Part shown: positions 10,988 to 26,870 of the stretch, one piece after another
Position numbering within the stretch: the first letter of the stretch is position 1
Layout of the letters: the number at the start of each line of letters is the position of its first letter
Origin: a virus
Virus record (IMG/VR): IMGVR_UViG_3300040960_000927
Span: 1-27,116 of that record
DNA length: 27,116 nucleotides
Reading direction: 5' to 3' (one strand)
The notes under the pieces: generated by a model
The model's database searches: none
The model's input: only the letters and a program-made list of their open reading frames with translations
Told to the model about the DNA's origin: nothing
Program-made: the position numbers and the translations under genes

Positions 10988-11554
10988 ATGGGATTCTGGA
11001 ACGATGTTACAACCGAACCTAAACGAGCGTTTAGATATTATGCCACCTTTGGTGGTAATGATCCTGGTTCTAAAATAGAATCATATGCTATCAAGAGTGT
11101 TAAAAAGCCCTCTTTTCAGGTTAGTTCTGTGCCGCATCAATATGTAGCACACACTTTTTACTACCCTGGTAGAATAACATGGGCTCCCGTTGATATTAGT
11201 TTTGTAGATCCAGTAGATCCAGATAGTTCAGCAGTTATTAGTAATATGATTTATCAAGCTGGTTATAGAAAGCCTGCTAATGAGACAATCGCAAGAAAGT
11301 CTTTTAGCAAGGAAAACTTTAAAAATGCGCTTGGTCAAATCACATTCAATCAGATTGATGCTGATGGTAATAACGTTGACCAATGGAGCCTTGTTAACTG
11401 CTTCTTCACTAATGTGGATTATGGACAGTTGGATTATGGCACAGAAGATTTAGTTATGCTTTCAGTCACTGTCCAATATGACTATGCTGAGTATAGCAAC
11501 TTCAACTCAGCTAGTCCAAATTCATTATTAGCTAGCAATAATGTTCTAGCTTAA
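10988..11554 (+). CDS. gp19: Tail tube protein, gp19-like (copy 1)
   Basis: A 188-residue tube-fold protein placed straight after the sheath as in T4 (18-19). Typical features are an FRYYATFGG strand near residue 15, the KKPSFQVSS strand, YYPGRITWAPVDISFVD (the strand-turn-strand seen in gp19), a helix around 85-95, ITFNQIDADGN, and the final pair TEDLVMLSVTVQYDYAEY. Tube subunits stack as hexameric rings inside the sheath. Preceded by AAGGAGA, a much better ribosome site than copy 2 has, so this is probably the abundant main tube subunit. Confidence 0.9.
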   Translation: MGFWNDVTTEPKRAFRYYATFGGNDPGSKIESYAIKSVKKPSFQVSSVPHQYVAHTFYYPGRITWAPVDISFVDPVDPDSSAVISNMIYQAGYRKPANETIARKSFSKENFKNALGQITFNQIDADGNNVDQWSLVNCFFTNVDYGQLDYGTEDLVMLSVTVQYDYAEYSNFNSASPNSLLASNNVLA

Positions 11555-11568
11555 GATTGGCGCTTTAA

Positions 11569-12093
11569 ATGGCTTTTTGGAATAACGTACAATCAGAGCC
11601 AAAAATGTCCTTTAGATGGTTCGCATCTTTTGGCATTAACAATGGCGAAGTTAAAACCTACACCTTGAGGTCTTTCCAGAAGCCTTCTTTCAACATCGCA
11701 ACATCAGAATACATTTGGCTAAATGACGTTGGATTTCGCCCAGGTGTCATCACCTGGGAGCCTATCGAAATAGTCTTAACTGATGGCGAGAGAAGAGATG
11801 CAAATAACACAAATAAGCTTGTTAATATTCTAAAAAACTCTGGGTATCAAACTAATGATGAGAATAAACCAAGGTCAATTATAGAAAAGAAAAAGTCTTC
11901 TGCCTCCTTGGGTAATCAGTTGTTTTTTACTCAAATCGACTCCGATGATAATCCAATAGAAGAGTGGGTTTTAATTAATCCATTTTTACAATCTGTTAAT
12001 TTTGGTCAAGCAAACTATGGAGCAGATGAAATTATGTCTATCTCCTTAGTTATTCGTTATGATTACGCTAACTATAATGAAATGTCTATTTAA
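11569..12093 (+). CDS. Second tail-tube-fold protein (gp19 paralogue)
   Basis: A 174-residue paralogue of the preceding gene, starting 14 bases after it. The two align along their whole length: MAFWNNVQSEPKMSFRWFASF against MGFWNDVTTEPKRAFRYYATF, FRPGVITWEPIEIVLTD against YYPGRITWAPVDISFVD, FFTQIDSDDNPIEEWVLINP against ITFNQIDADGNNVDQWSLVN, and IMSISLVIRYDYANYNE at the end. It has no Shine-Dalgarno sequence (GCGCTTTAAATGG), which suggests lower expression than copy 1. Likely roles are a special ring at one end of the tube, such as the initiator that T4 makes with gp48 and gp54, or an alternative subunit. Duplication is seen directly; the role is inferred. Confidence 0.85.
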   Translation: MAFWNNVQSEPKMSFRWFASFGINNGEVKTYTLRSFQKPSFNIATSEYIWLNDVGFRPGVITWEPIEIVLTDGERRDANNTNKLVNILKNSGYQTNDENKPRSIIEKKKSSASLGNQLFFTQIDSDDNPIEEWVLINPFLQSVNFGQANYGADEIMSISLVIRYDYANYNEMSI

Positions 12094-22691: not shown

Positions 22692-23540
22692 ATGCAAACC
22701 GTCATTGGTTTGGGTAAAGCAGGTTGTAGCATCGCAGATCACCTATCTCAATACCCACAATATCAAATAAAAAAAATAGATGTAGACCTAAAAAAGACCA
22801 AGACTACTTTTGGTCTTAAGCATCAGGACAGTCCAGAACTTTATGAATCAACCCAACTACCGAAAGGTATAAACAACTTCTTAGAGGGGGTGATGTCCGA
22901 AACTTTATTCATTACAAGTTGTGGTTCTGTTTCTGGTGCTTCCCTAAAAATATTACAGAAAATACACACGAAAACCAAAATACGAGTAATGTATATCCTT
23001 CCACAAGAAGACGACCTTGTAGGTCAAAAACTCTTACAAAACCGCCTTCTTTTCAACGTCTTCCAAGAATATGCTCGGTCAGGCTTACTTGACCGTGTTT
23101 TTTTAGTTGACAATTCTAAATTATCTGGTATAATGGGTCCAGTTCCAATAATGAAGTTCTGGGACTCAATGAATAACTTGGTGGCAACAACTTATCACAT
23201 GTTGAATGTTTTTCAAAATACACAGTCAGTAATGACTACGCAGACCAAGCGTATCGACACTGCTCGTGTATCTACCTTTGGTTTGCTCAACCCAGAAAAT
23301 AATGAAGAGAAAATGTTTTTTGAGCTTGACATTCCAAGAGAAAAAAGTTATTATTATGGAGTTCCGAAAAAACAATTAGAAGAAGATCCTAACTTGATGG
23401 AGGTTATTCGTGGAAACCTAAAAGCAAATACAGAACACGAAAAAATGAAAACAACTTATTCGGTTCATTCAACCGATTATAATGAGCTAATAGCTTACTG
23501 CGAAAAAAGCAGCACTTTAATACAACAACTAGCAGTGTGA
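22692..23540 (+). CDS. FtsZ/tubulin-like protein (divergent, predicted)
   Basis: A 282-residue protein. Segment order follows FtsZ: TVIGLGKAGCSIADHL at 3-18 (FtsZ loop GVGGAGGNAV), a strand ending in an acid (KKIDVD), LFITSCGSVSGAS at 72-84 in place of the GGGTGTG signature (G, then S-V-S-G-A, a milder T-x-T to S-x-S change), RVMYILPQED at 98-107, the helix QNRLLFNVFQEY at 116-127, DRVFLVDNSKL at 134-144 (FtsZ IPNDKL), then the long helix FWDSMNNLVATTYHMLNVF. The C-terminal 90 residues look like an alpha/beta domain. It is shorter than FtsZ and than the PhuZ spindle protein, and the phosphate loop is altered, so GTP binding is uncertain. A plain Rossmann dinucleotide-binding protein is the main alternative. 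Ribosome site GAGGA. Confidence 0.5.
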   Translation: MQTVIGLGKAGCSIADHLSQYPQYQIKKIDVDLKKTKTTFGLKHQDSPELYESTQLPKGINNFLEGVMSETLFITSCGSVSGASLKILQKIHTKTKIRVMYILPQEDDLVGQKLLQNRLLFNVFQEYARSGLLDRVFLVDNSKLSGIMGPVPIMKFWDSMNNLVATTYHMLNVFQNTQSVMTTQTKRIDTARVSTFGLLNPENNEEKMFFELDIPREKSYYYGVPKKQLEEDPNLMEVIRGNLKANTEHEKMKTTYSVHSTDYNELIAYCEKSSTLIQQLAV

Positions 23541-23585: not shown

Positions 23586-24275
23586 TTGGAAATTGAAGAA
23601 TACCTACAAAGAATCCCGCAAAGCGGAGATGTTCGTAGAAGAAAAGGAGGAAAATGGGTCTATAAAAACCCAACAGGAGAAACTTCTTGTTTTGAAACAA
23701 AGAAAAAGGCTCTTGAATCTCGTCAAAAGTGGATGCCGTGGCAGTCACAGTTTGTAACGCTGGGTATTTTGAGTCATGGAGATACTTTGACCTATCAATC
23801 GTATCGCTCAAATACAAGAGAGATTGTAACTGTCATGGGGACACAATCAAAAAAACTCTTAGTAAGACACAATGGGAAAGAAAAGACACTTGAGCAGGTT
23901 CAAGTTGATTTGAACGGTCCAAGGGGTGGCTTATCTTTCAACAGCTTCAAGATTGACAAGCTCGGAGGAAAGTCGCTACAGCAAGTAAAAAAAGAAATCC
24001 AACGCCACTGTCGTAAGGAGAAAGTTTCTCCTGAAGAAACTCAAATGTCACTAGAGCTACCAGTAACTACTGCTACTGAATCAGCTACACAAGAACAACT
24101 TACAGTAAGTGTAACAAATCTAGTGTCGAGTGAGACTTCTTTTACTAGTCAGATTGTGAATTTCACCGAAACTGCTATCTCACTAATGCCAGGAAATGTA
24201 TCTATCGAAGATCGTGTCGGCAGGATTGGAAGAGCGTTGGTAGCAATTAGTTCGACAAAAGTGGTTGACAACTAA
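23586..24275 (+). CDS. Unknown protein upstream of the SSB gene
   Basis: A 229-residue protein, not recognised. TTG 23586 is used as start because AAGGAG lies 6 bases upstream and no ATG is nearby in frame. Residues 1-50 are basic with RRRKGGKWVYKNPTG and a helix KKKALESRQKWM. Residues 57-110 (LSHGDTLTYQSYRS, then REIVTVMGTQSKKLLVRH and KEKTLEQVQVDL) look like a small SH3/Tudor-type beta barrel. Residues 120-140 form a basic helix. The remainder is Thr/Ser/Glu-rich, then a helical end. It lies directly before gp32 and behind a leader hairpin of the same type, so a role in replication or recombination, perhaps with SSB, is suggested by context only. Confidence 0.6.
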   Translation: MEIEEYLQRIPQSGDVRRRKGGKWVYKNPTGETSCFETKKKALESRQKWMPWQSQFVTLGILSHGDTLTYQSYRSNTREIVTVMGTQSKKLLVRHNGKEKTLEQVQVDLNGPRGGLSFNSFKIDKLGGKSLQQVKKEIQRHCRKEKVSPEETQMSLELPVTTATESATQEQLTVSVTNLVSSETSFTSQIVNFTETAISLMPGNVSIEDRVGRIGRALVAISSTKVVDN

Positions 24276-24293
24276 AAAAATATTTATTATAAT
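24265..24293 (+). promoter_or_regulatory. Consensus sigma-70 promoter for the gp32-like gene
   Basis: TTGACA (24265-24270) and TATAAT (24288-24293) are perfect consensus boxes separated by exactly 17 bases. Transcription would begin near 24300, placing the hairpin 24298-24320 at the very 5' end of the message. The -35 box overlaps the last codons of the upstream gene. This would be read by unmodified host RNA polymerase, as for T4 early genes. Confidence 0.9.
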
Positions 24294-24346: not shown

Positions 24347-25099
24347 ATGGGAATTAATATGGAGAAAATGCGTGCTCGTATGGAGGCGCTTCAAGGAAAT
24401 GGAAACAACGCACGAAAGAATAACTTTTGGAAACCACAAGAGGGCGAGCAAACTGTTCGTCTTGTCGCTCCATCAGATGGAGATGTTTTCCGTGATCTTT
24501 GGTTTCACTATGACGTAGCGGGTGAGCCAGGGTTCCTATCGCCAAAGCGTAACTTTGGAGAGGACTGTCCGCTCGATGACTACGTTCGTGCTCTATGGCG
24601 TGAGGGTTCAGAGGAGTCCAAGCGTGTAGCACGTAAATTGGGTGCGAAGCAGCGTTTCTTTGCTCCAGTAGTAGTTCGAGGTGAAGAGACAGAAGGTGTC
24701 AAAGTTTGGGGCTTCGGTAAACGTGCCTATGAGACCTTGCTTCGTCTTGTACTAAACCCAGAATATGGCGATATTTCAGACCCAACCGATGGAACTGATT
24801 TGGTTATCACTTACTCAAAACCAGCGGGAGCATCTTATCCAGAGACTAAGATTACTCCACGCCGTAAGTCTTCTCTTCTTCACGAGGACGAGACACAAGC
24901 ACGCACTCTAATGGAGTCTGTGCCTGACTTTGATGAGGTCTTCGCTGACGCTCGTCGTTCTTCTACGCAAGTAGCAGACATTCTTGACCGCTTCCTCAAC
25001 ACAGTTGACGAGGCTGTCGCTAACCAGCCAGTAGCCTCAACTTCTACTGGTGCTGTCTCTGATGTCGATAAGGCATTCTCCGAACTACTCGGTAGTTAG
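24347..25099 (+). CDS. gp32: Single-stranded DNA-binding protein, gp32-like
   Basis: A 250-residue protein. The N-terminal MEKMRARMEAL helix and basic stretch match the cooperativity region of gp32-type proteins. FWKPQEGEQTVRLVAP (27-42) followed by WFHYDVAG is the usual beginning of the OB-fold core, and KVWGFGKRAYETLLRLV with PEYGDISDPTDGTDLVITYSK its second half. The C-terminus ends with DVDKAFSELLGS, an acidic-amphipathic tail of the kind that binds replication partners. T4 gp32 has zinc ligands H64, C77, C87 and C90; here the matching positions are H54, S65, C74 and D77, so the zinc site seems lost. Length is shorter than T4 (301). Codons favour CGT for Arg, as in the capsid gene, suggesting high expression. 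It has its own promoter and terminator. Confidence 0.85.
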   Translation: MGINMEKMRARMEALQGNGNNARKNNFWKPQEGEQTVRLVAPSDGDVFRDLWFHYDVAGEPGFLSPKRNFGEDCPLDDYVRALWREGSEESKRVARKLGAKQRFFAPVVVRGEETEGVKVWGFGKRAYETLLRLVLNPEYGDISDPTDGTDLVITYSKPAGASYPETKITPRRKSSLLHEDETQARTLMESVPDFDEVFADARRSSTQVADILDRFLNTVDEAVANQPVASTSTGAVSDVDKAFSELLGS

Positions 25100-25105
25100 G
25101 ACTTT

Positions 25106-25129
25106 GGGGGGCTTGTCCCCCCTTTTTTT
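25106..25129 (+). terminator. Intrinsic terminator after gp32
   Basis: GGGGGG (25106-25111), loop CTTGT, CCCCCC (25117-25122) and then seven T. It begins six bases after the stop codon, so the gp32-like gene, with promoter at 24265, forms a complete single-gene transcription unit. Confidence 0.95.
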
Positions 25130-25156: not shown

Positions 25157-25438
25157 GTGTTCGTAAAAGCTATTAAGTGTGAAGAGTGTAATTCAACTGT
25201 TTATTCAAGAGCAAGAGAAGATGTGAGAGAATGCGAGTGTGGACGAGTAATGGTCTACGGAGGTTTTCTAACTCACTTCAAATACGATATCAAAGATAAA
25301 AAAACAAAGTTCAAAACCCTCAAGATGAACATTAAAGCAACTCCAAACGATCTCTACAATGATTATGAGAGTATGGAAGATAAGTTTGGGTTGATCAGAC
25401 AACAAAAAAAAGAAACCAATTCAACTTACACATTTTAG
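25157..25438 (+). CDS. Small zinc-ribbon protein, function unknown
   Basis: A 93-residue protein starting at GTG after AAAGGGGAAG. The N-terminal 35 residues contain IKCEECNSTVYSRAREDVRE followed by CECGRVMVYGG: C-x2-C about 17 residues before C-x-C, the outline of a one-zinc ribbon. The later half is charged, with KDKKTKFKTLKMNIK and an acidic ending. Short ribbon proteins with a YSR...D.R.C.CG layout occur in many phages without known role. Its position between SSB and the recombinase hints at nucleic-acid binding, but this is context only. Confidence 0.6.
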   Translation: MFVKAIKCEECNSTVYSRAREDVRECECGRVMVYGGFLTHFKYDIKDKKTKFKTLKMNIKATPNDLYNDYESMEDKFGLIRQQKKETNSTYTF

Positions 25439-25447
25439 GAGATAACC

Positions 25448-25771
25448 GTGAAAAAATGGAAAAGAGGAGAAGAAGGTTTTGAAGCTGCTCTTCAAGATTT
25501 AGCAACCAAGTACAAAGGTCTTGGTGGAGGACCAGACTCTGAGTCTTCAGTCCACGCCTCAAAACAAGACATTAAAGAAGGCTATGCTTGGTTCTGGTCT
25601 GATAATAGCGACGTTTCTAACCTTATTCAGCGCTCCCAAGACTATATCCTAGAAGTCAGAGACTTCGGAGGTAACGTGTCTATGAAACTAGATAGACGTG
25701 GATACCGTGGACCTATTTACGCTTTTAGACCCGACAAGAACGAAAGTTCAGAGGAGGAAGACGTTGGCTAA
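25448..25771 (+). CDS. Unknown 107-residue protein
   Basis: Starts at GTG 25448 with TAGGAGA just upstream, 9 bases after the previous stop, and overlaps the recombinase start by 8 bases. The protein has a basic beginning (MKKWKRGEEGFEAALQDL), a Gly-rich linker (about 25-32), then KEGYAWFWSDNSDVSNLIQR and a beta-rich part SQDYILEVRDFGGNVSMKL ending RRGYRGPIYAFRP, followed by an acidic tail. I know no family. The compact beta end and the tight coupling to UvsX suggest a small accessory factor for recombination, which the sequence cannot prove. Confidence 0.55.
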   Translation: MKKWKRGEEGFEAALQDLATKYKGLGGGPDSESSVHASKQDIKEGYAWFWSDNSDVSNLIQRSQDYILEVRDFGGNVSMKLDRRGYRGPIYAFRPDKNESSEEEDVG

Positions 25772-26870
25772 AAAGAAAGCCGCTGGTCGCTTATCAATAG
25801 ACCAGATGAGAAAATTAATTAATAAAAAAGCAGGACAGGAAGTCTCTGTTGACCTAACAGACCCAGACAATCCAACAACTGTAAAGCAATGGATTCCAAC
25901 AGGTGCTCGTTGGTTAGATAGTATTATCTGCCGAGGTAAAGTTGCCGGTATTCCAGTTGGTAAAGTTACAGAGATTGCTGGTCTGGAAGCAAGTGGTAAG
26001 TCCTATATGGCAGCGCAAATAGCAGGAAACGCCCAGAAAATGGGTATTGATGTTGTTTATTTTGACTCCGAGTCTTCACTTGACTTCAACTTTTTGGAGA
26101 AAGCAGGATGCGACCCTTCAAAGATTCTTTATGTTCAAGCAACCTCAGTAGAGTTTGTTTTGGAAACAATCGAGGAACTACTTTCTTCAACAGATAGTCA
26201 GTTTCTTTTTATCTGGGATAGTTTGGCTCTTACTCCATCTATTTCAGATGTAGAAGGCGACTTCAACCCACAGTCAACTATGGCTGTAAAGGCTCGCATT
26301 CTATCCAAAGGAATGTCAAAACTAACTGTTCCTATTGCGAATAGTCAGTCTACTTTCCTAGTGCTAAACCAGTTGAAGGCAAACATTACTCGTTCGCCAT
26401 CTGAAGCACTTACCACTCCTTATATGACACCGGGTGGTAAAGCGATGGTTTACACTTACTCACTACGCATTTGGTTGACCCGACCAAAAGCAAAGGCATC
26501 TTTCGTCACAGACGATAAAGGTTATCGCATCGGTAACACCGTGAAAGTAAAACTTGAAAAGTCTCGTTTTGGTTCACAAGGTCGTCAGTGTCAGTTCCAA
26601 ATCCTCTGGGGAGACACCGTAGGTGTTGCTGACGAGGAAAGTTGGTTTGACGCCATTCAAGGCTCAGAGCACTTAGAACGCTCTGGTGCTTGGTATGAAC
26701 TTAAGTTTGCCGATGGCACAAGTGAGAAGTTTCAGTCTGCTCGATGGTTAGATAAACTTCAAGATGACAAGTTTAAAGCCCGTGTTTTAGAAATCATGGA
26801 CGAAGAGGTTGTTATGAAATTTGATAAACGTTCAGGAGACGCAACAGAGTTCTACGAAGAAACTGCTTGA
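25764..26870 (+). CDS. uvsX: RecA/UvsX-type recombinase
   Basis: A 368-residue ATPase. TTG 25764 is chosen because GGAGG lies 6 to 10 bases upstream; a longer frame from 25698 would lie wholly inside the previous gene with an unrelated N-terminus. Walker A is GLEASGKS (73-80), the catalytic Glu follows as FDSES (E103), and Walker B is FLFIWDS (147-153). FLVLNQLKANI corresponds to the RecA L2-flanking strand with a conserved Gln/Asn region, and MTPGGKAMVYTYSLRIWL and VKLEKSRFG are typical of UvsX/RecA. It forms filaments on single-stranded DNA, normally working with gp32 in recombination-dependent replication; both genes are here. The C-terminal 80 residues after QFQILWGD differ from bacterial RecA, as in T4 UvsX. 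Confidence 0.9.
   Translation: MAKKKAAGRLSIDQMRKLINKKAGQEVSVDLTDPDNPTTVKQWIPTGARWLDSIICRGKVAGIPVGKVTEIAGLEASGKSYMAAQIAGNAQKMGIDVVYFDSESSLDFNFLEKAGCDPSKILYVQATSVEFVLETIEELLSSTDSQFLFIWDSLALTPSISDVEGDFNPQSTMAVKARILSKGMSKLTVPIANSQSTFLVLNQLKANITRSPSEALTTPYMTPGGKAMVYTYSLRIWLTRPKAKASFVTDDKGYRIGNTVKVKLEKSRFGSQGRQCQFQILWGDTVGVADEESWFDAIQGSEHLERSGAWYELKFADGTSEKFQSARWLDKLQDDKFKARVLEIMDEEVVMKFDKRSGDATEFYEETA

Follow-up and report, generated by a model that had tools for sequence, protein, structure and literature searches.

The locus studied here raises the question of what a 282-residue protein, encoded between a DNA polymerase gene and the gene for a single-strand DNA-binding protein, might do for its phage. 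It lies in a window of 27,116 nucleotides that spans the entire 27.1-kb IMG/VR record IMGVR_UViG_3300040960_000927, which is probably a fragment of a larger genome. The virion genes of the window, coding for a T4-type major head protein, a tail sheath, two tail-tube proteins and a baseplate hub protein, correspond to a contractile-tailed phage; they are followed by genes for a short family-A DNA polymerase (polA), the protein in question (hereafter TubS), a gp32-type single-strand DNA-binding protein and UvsX (Table 1). The tandem tail-tube genes (10988-11554 and 11569-12093) both match one PHROG family, phrog_4542. A first-pass annotation had described the open reading frame as a divergent FtsZ/tubulin-like gene; we observed that the frame exists and that it contains all the segments quoted in its support. 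The same annotation placed it in a T4-type replication region, which is correct with regard to the gp32-like and UvsX-like neighbours, but not with regard to the polymerase, a short enzyme of family A that is not of the T4 gp43 type. An exonuclease domain is apparently absent from this short polymerase.

Table 1. Features of the TubS locus and of TubL, with positions in the window unless a locus is named
Feature	Position	Strand	Evidence and remarks
TubS, divergent tubulin/FtsZ-superfamily protein, 282 aa, ATG start	22692..23540	+	ORF; AF2; Foldseek; hhalign
T1-type glycine loop and start of H1 (IGLGKAGCSI, residues 5-14)	22704..22733	+	G6, G8, G11, C12 in 75/75; model
Loop at the T4 position (ITSCGSVSGAS, residues 74-84)	22911..22943	+	Model; GGGTG(S/T)G signature absent
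Asn141, T6 position	23112..23114	+	75/75; aligned with E. coli FtsZ N165, guanine contact (PMC8456036)
H7-type core helix, residues 153-175, 23 residues	23148..23216	+	Model; Asn161 on E. coli FtsZ N187, 75/75
Loop at the place of T7/H8, residues 176-192	23217..23267	+	Model: helix absent; conserved acid absent
C-terminal beta domain, residues 193-282, smaller than in FtsZ	23268..23537	+	AF2, with the TubL model as comparison
Short family-A DNA polymerase, 395 aa	21497..22684	+	PF00476 E 1.8e-13; synteny; ends 7 bases before TubS
gp32-type single-strand DNA-binding protein	24347..25099	+	PF08804, phrog_1192; synteny
UvsX/RecA-type recombinase	25698..26870	+	PF00154, phrog_97; tree
TubL examples	L187:1030-2121 (G004:C1:103407-104477), L195-L274, L424	- for L187	Canonical FtsZ-like

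When used alone, TubS gave no significant match in Pfam, PHROGs, NCBIfam, PADLOC, the PDB sequences or INPHARED (50,697 phage records); its sole Pfam match was a weak one to MurD-like_N (E 0.083), and the matches of profile A1 to the PDB sequences were at chance level (best SirA, E 0.048). A description of the family was not found in a literature search. Relatives were nevertheless detected on at least 589 IMG/VR contigs, with identities that range from 95% to about 35%. A pattern search of GTDB contigs from 84,980 prokaryote genomes returned 96 matches, none of which is a relative of TubS, so that a cellular or prophage copy was not found with the patterns used. The alignment of 180 homologous ORFs (75 non-redundant at 85%) revealed 19 positions that are invariant in all 75 sequences: G6, G8, G11, C12, Y24, D30, L85, Y101, Q125, R129, S130, N141, N161, M170, N172, G197, Y220, Y263 and Y269. 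The median dN/dS among close relatives was 0.11 and, as judged from these sequences, TubS is under strong purifying selection.

The AlphaFold2 (AF2) model of TubS (pLDDT 92.5, pTM 0.91, from a 37-row alignment) exhibited a tubulin/FtsZ fold in which the elements follow the order of the superfamily: beta-H1-beta, beta-H3, beta, helix 111-129, beta, H7 and a C-terminal beta domain. The segments lie in this model where the first-pass annotation had put them. A strand at residues 2-7 leads into the GLGKAGC turn, strand 24-31 ends in IDVD, strand 70-75 is followed by the CGSVSGAS turn and helix 79-91, and strand 96-103 contains RVMYILPQ; then come helix 111-129 (QNRLLFNVFQEY), strand 135-140 with N141 after it, and the long helix 153-175. 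A Foldseek search against the PDB returned 630 matches at E ≤ 0.001, the best 50 of which are all FtsZ, TubZ or tubulin (best match E 2.1e-12, query TM about 0.7), and among viral models the best named matches are annotated as FtsZ, cell division protein or tubulin. Evidence of homology that does not rest on the structure model was obtained with hhalign, since the 75-sequence TubS profile matched eight PhuZ proteins with a score of 40.1 (E 8.7e-5) and eight FtsZ proteins with a score of 35.2 (E 5.7e-4), while the highest score among column-shuffled nulls (30 each for PhuZ and FtsZ) was 21.6. PF00091 was matched weakly by 12 of 37 TubS members (best E 0.0014). Scores above those of the shuffled nulls, together with the invariant residues and the low dN/dS, bear out the view that the quoted segments are not a chance resemblance, and the negative single-sequence searches agree with the prediction that simple searches might miss so remote a relative.

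TubS could instead be an unrelated Rossmann-type nucleotide-binding enzyme that merely resembles FtsZ, as the weak MurD-like_N match and the N-terminal GxGxAG might suggest. This is the outcome that the first-pass annotation had set against its own proposal, namely Rossmann proteins as best matches, without an H7-type core helix and a C-terminal domain. However, Rossmann proteins do not appear among the best 50 of the 630 PDB matches, the H7-type helix and the C-terminal beta domain are both present, and the profile matches PhuZ and FtsZ, all of which leaves a Rossmann enzyme with a negligible probability. TubS is almost certainly a member of the tubulin/FtsZ superfamily in fold and in descent.

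The residues that line the nucleotide pocket and those that would act on a neighbouring subunit have had different fates. In FtsZ, N165 hydrogen-bonds the guanine base, and residues of H7 also recognise guanine (PMC8456036). Both guanine-contact positions, at T6 and H7, are kept in TubS (N141 and N161, 75/75). The phosphate loop is degenerate, as had been noted before, with the GGGTG(S/T)G signature of T4 replaced by SCGSVSGAS and variants of it such as GGGGKISSAS, and with so degenerate a loop TubS could bind nucleotide differently or no longer bind it. In FtsZ and tubulin, the T7 acids (NxDxxD/E) of one subunit supply the missing part of the active site of the next. Between residues 174 and 192 of TubS, no position carries an acid in more than 49% of the 75 sequences. 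A [DE]xx[DE] pattern in another register occurs in 25 of the 75, but its positions differ. In the AF2 model, helix H8 is absent and residues 176-192 form a loop.

Because the T7 acids are needed at the active site of the neighbour, their loss makes canonical hydrolysis by TubS unlikely, as far as sequence and model can tell, and a T7-type hydrolysis by TubS itself is probably lacking. Guanine-nucleotide binding is predicted with somewhat less assurance, yet is still likely. The GTP-binding pocket thus seems to be kept, whereas the part that splits GTP and joins filaments seems to have been lost; this combination favours nucleotide binding without self-catalysed turnover. Since the T4 signature, the T7 acids and H8 are all missing, TubS belongs to the superfamily by fold and homology, and is not an FtsZ, a TubZ or a PhuZ. 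The earlier proposal of a filament protein, understood as a self-assembling PhuZ-like filament, finds no support in the model and the alignment, as the absence of T7 and H8 deprives TubS of one longitudinal face.

The loss of one longitudinal face along with the catalytic loop could also reflect a monomeric nucleotide switch, that is, a protein that senses GTP/GDP and regulates the polymerase or the single-strand DNA-binding protein without forming a polymer. Other tubulin-fold proteins that have lost assembly exist, and the fixed polA-TubS-gp32 order described below would suit such a regulator. However, TubS retains the tubulin fold in full, with both the H7 helix and the C-terminal domain, and we regard a switch as unlikely.

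The position of the gene in phage genomes is nearly constant. Of 156 loci that extend far enough, 154 have polA directly upstream of TubS; gp32 lies downstream in 139 of 140, and the start codon of TubS often overlaps the end of polA or comes within 10 bases after it. As a precaution against selection bias, loci were also fetched with polA and gp32 probes, some of them on contigs already found with TubS probes; TubS occupied the polA-gp32 junction in 57/57 gp32-anchored loci and in 17 of the 18 polA-anchored ones. The count becomes 18/18 with L337, where TubS seemed absent but is present beyond two inserted ORFs and is cut by the contig end. On this gene order, TubS belongs to the core genes of its phage clade, within the replication operon (75/75 anchored loci). 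Since it is a core gene that adjoins the polymerase gene and is under strong purifying selection, a role in replication or its organisation is favoured over an optional attack on the host, although gene neighbourhood alone is no proof of shared function.

These results bear on the preference of the first-pass annotation for a decoy or cap, in which TubS would dock on the exposed T7 face of the host FtsZ and block its assembly and host division. TubS has indeed kept the nucleotide-side face and lost the T7/H8 face, as a cap might. Inhibition of FtsZ is known in other phages, by Gp0.4 of T7 (PMC13423816), Kil of lambda and T5.008, and MciZ caps FtsZ ends (PMC8456036). The constant place of TubS in the replication operon and the purifying selection on it are nonetheless unlike what is typical of host-takeover genes. 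The phage FtsZ inhibitors known so far are, moreover, small and unrelated proteins, often accessory ones. The decoy is therefore as improbable as the switch, and the preference for it is not upheld.

A caveat to reading a shared function from this gene order is that, in the window, gp32 is preceded by a promoter-like site of its own and followed by a terminator. Directly 5' of gp32 there is a perfect TTGACA-17-TATAAT site (24265-24293), and directly 3' of it a strong GGGGGGCTTGTCCCCCC-T7 terminator (25106-25122) that was seen again in several relatives. Within the TubS gene itself (23076-23134), a hairpin that resembles a terminator and ends in a run of T is followed by a perfect extended sigma-70-type promoter, TTGACA-16-TATAAT; this promoter is intact in every letter in all 20 relatives with more than 80% identity and in 25 of 47 at 45-80%, and nearly absent in remoter ones. 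The promoter-like sites near and inside the gene give only a hint of a host with ordinary sigma-70 promoters. Flavobacteriales are the hosts predicted for other Far-T4 phages (PMC13037479), with which such sites would fit less well, again only as a hint. Two further ORFs flank gp32 in the window. The one between TubS and gp32 (23586-24275, 229 aa) has homologues in few of the fetched loci (6 hits) and is apparently an insertion in the lineage of the window itself. The one after gp32 (25157-25438, 93 aa) shows a zinc-ribbon-like CxxC...CxC pattern and has no PHROG match.

In a UvsX tree, the sampled TubS phages formed one clade with a support of 100/100. Their closest major head proteins are those of Microcystis phage Mel-JY01, Rhodothermus phage RM378, an uncultured jumbo phage and Flavobacterium phage immuto, and among the Far-T4 phages, which also comprise freshwater contigs, the head proteins of Mel-JY01 (38.5%) and RM378 (34.4% over 96%) are the nearest. 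The TubS clade is, by these sequence comparisons, a large uncultured group of Far-T4-like myoviruses. Mel-JY01 carries polA, gp32 and UvsX in the same order as the TubS phages, but these differ from the five related Far-T4-like records that we searched (Mel-JY01, RM378, the uncultured jumbo phage, immuto and Thermus phage phiLo), in which TubS is absent and PF00091 scores are at chance level, with no convincing tubulin. The ORF at the TubS position of Mel-JY01, between polA and gp32 (L299:3714-5000), is S-adenosylmethionine-lyase-like and not a tubulin, and the phages that carry only TubL (see below) have other, unrelated genes at this junction, including one of about 180 aa. The polA-gp32 junction thus seems to be an insertion hotspot. 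The main text of three Far-T4 papers (PMC4360716, PMC7198788, PMC13037479) mentions neither FtsZ nor tubulin.

Searching large TubS contigs with PF00091 uncovered a second FtsZ-like protein, TubL, which is 364 aa long on the 166-kb L128 contig. TubL proteins, of about 345-410 aa, occur in large uncultured phages, part of which also carry TubS, and gave no match in cultured phages. Like TubS, TubL belongs to the superfamily and has invariant Asn residues at T6 and H7; unlike TubS, it keeps T1, T4, T7 and H8 intact (motifs GVGGGGGK, GGGGGTGS and FDSKDLER), and T7 and H8 are also visible in its AF2 model. It matched TIGR00065 below the cut-off (E 9.5e-8) and CetZ in Foldseek (E 5e-20), and has an acidic, conserved N-terminal segment (DDFDFV.HYG). 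The comparison of the TubS and TubL profiles gave a score of 20, at the null level, which indicates that TubL is not a close or recent paralogue of TubS. In TubL-only sister phages, a DnaQ-like exonuclease is encoded by a separate gene near polA (L313:7458-8294).

The two proteins are encoded on one contig in eight cases, five of them above 165 kb and, as TubL has both T7 and H8, TubS could be its partner or regulator in an alpha/beta-like pair where TubL would supply the catalytic T7 loop. However, TubL was not detected on six TubS contigs of 172-190 kb, which may be incomplete, and TubL occurs without TubS in a separate UvsX clade; neither protein thus appears to need the other, and such a pairing is very unlikely. 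For the TubS clade this suggests a core TubS and an accessory TubL, although incomplete contigs weaken the absences.

Among the known systems close to TubS, PhuZ (phiKZ TubZ) of nucleus-forming jumbo phages is a phage-encoded member of the superfamily, gave the best profile match among those tried, and has a similar GGAG-type T1 loop and an SG-containing T4 loop. PhuZ, however, keeps the T7 acids (two invariant Asp) and has a long C-terminal tail, whereas TubS is shorter, lacks the conserved T7 acid, ends after the beta domain and sits in the polA-gp32 operon. Nine TubS contigs gave no match to the nuclear shell protein of phiKZ (chimallin), a weak test, as the query recognised only one of the three control phages that carry PhuZ. 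In the tubZRC partition system, tubR and centromere repeats adjoin tubZ; the neighbours of TubS are polA and gp32. With bacterial FtsZ, TubS shares the fold (Foldseek E 2e-12, TM about 0.7) and the T6 and H7 Asn positions at an identity of 10-14% in the structure alignments; it differs in lacking the GGGTGTG signature of T4, the NxDxxD of T7, H8 and an FtsZ-type C-terminal tail. Divergent members of the FtsZ-tubulin superfamily have been described before as FtsZl1 and FtsZl2, one of them with a T6-H7 region not confidently identified (Makarova and Koonin 2010, PMC2875224); these are cellular and keep the GGGTG(S/T)G loop, while TubS is viral and lacks this signature.

Taken as a whole, the evidence is best explained by a guanine-nucleotide-binding, non-hydrolysing tubulin-fold scaffold that is core to a Far-T4-like replication module, a reading to which we give a probability of about 0.45. 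TubS would be co-produced with the polymerase and act at the phage replication site, where it would bind GTP/GDP in its N-terminal pocket and could not make up a canonical T7-catalysed active site with a neighbouring subunit. It may then work as a nucleotide-dependent scaffold or positioning subunit, with slow or absent hydrolysis, and not as a treadmilling filament. The assignment of TubS to scaffolding or positioning at the replication site is itself tentative, with odds slightly short of even. The missing T7/H8 face counts against canonical self-assembly, and a scaffold would accordingly need another contact. It is more doubtful that TubS represents a new functional class of viral tubulins, replication-linked, devoid of T7 and binding GTP without hydrolysis of its own. 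Such a class would serve to build or anchor the replication site in a Far-T4-like clade that is both uncultured and widespread, some of whose phages would run two tubulin systems.

To date, phage tubulins have been studied mainly in jumbo phages that form a nucleus and in plasmid-like phages. The tubulin-fold gene described here belongs to the core of the replication module in a clade of uncultured phages; it is present on hundreds of contigs and unmentioned in the main text of the three Far-T4 papers cited above. Since T7 and H8 have been lost naturally, TubS also lends itself to asking how much of the tubulin fold must be kept for a nucleotide to be bound but not hydrolysed. If TubS works at the replication site, subcellular organisation by relatives of tubulin would not be limited to phages that form a nucleus.
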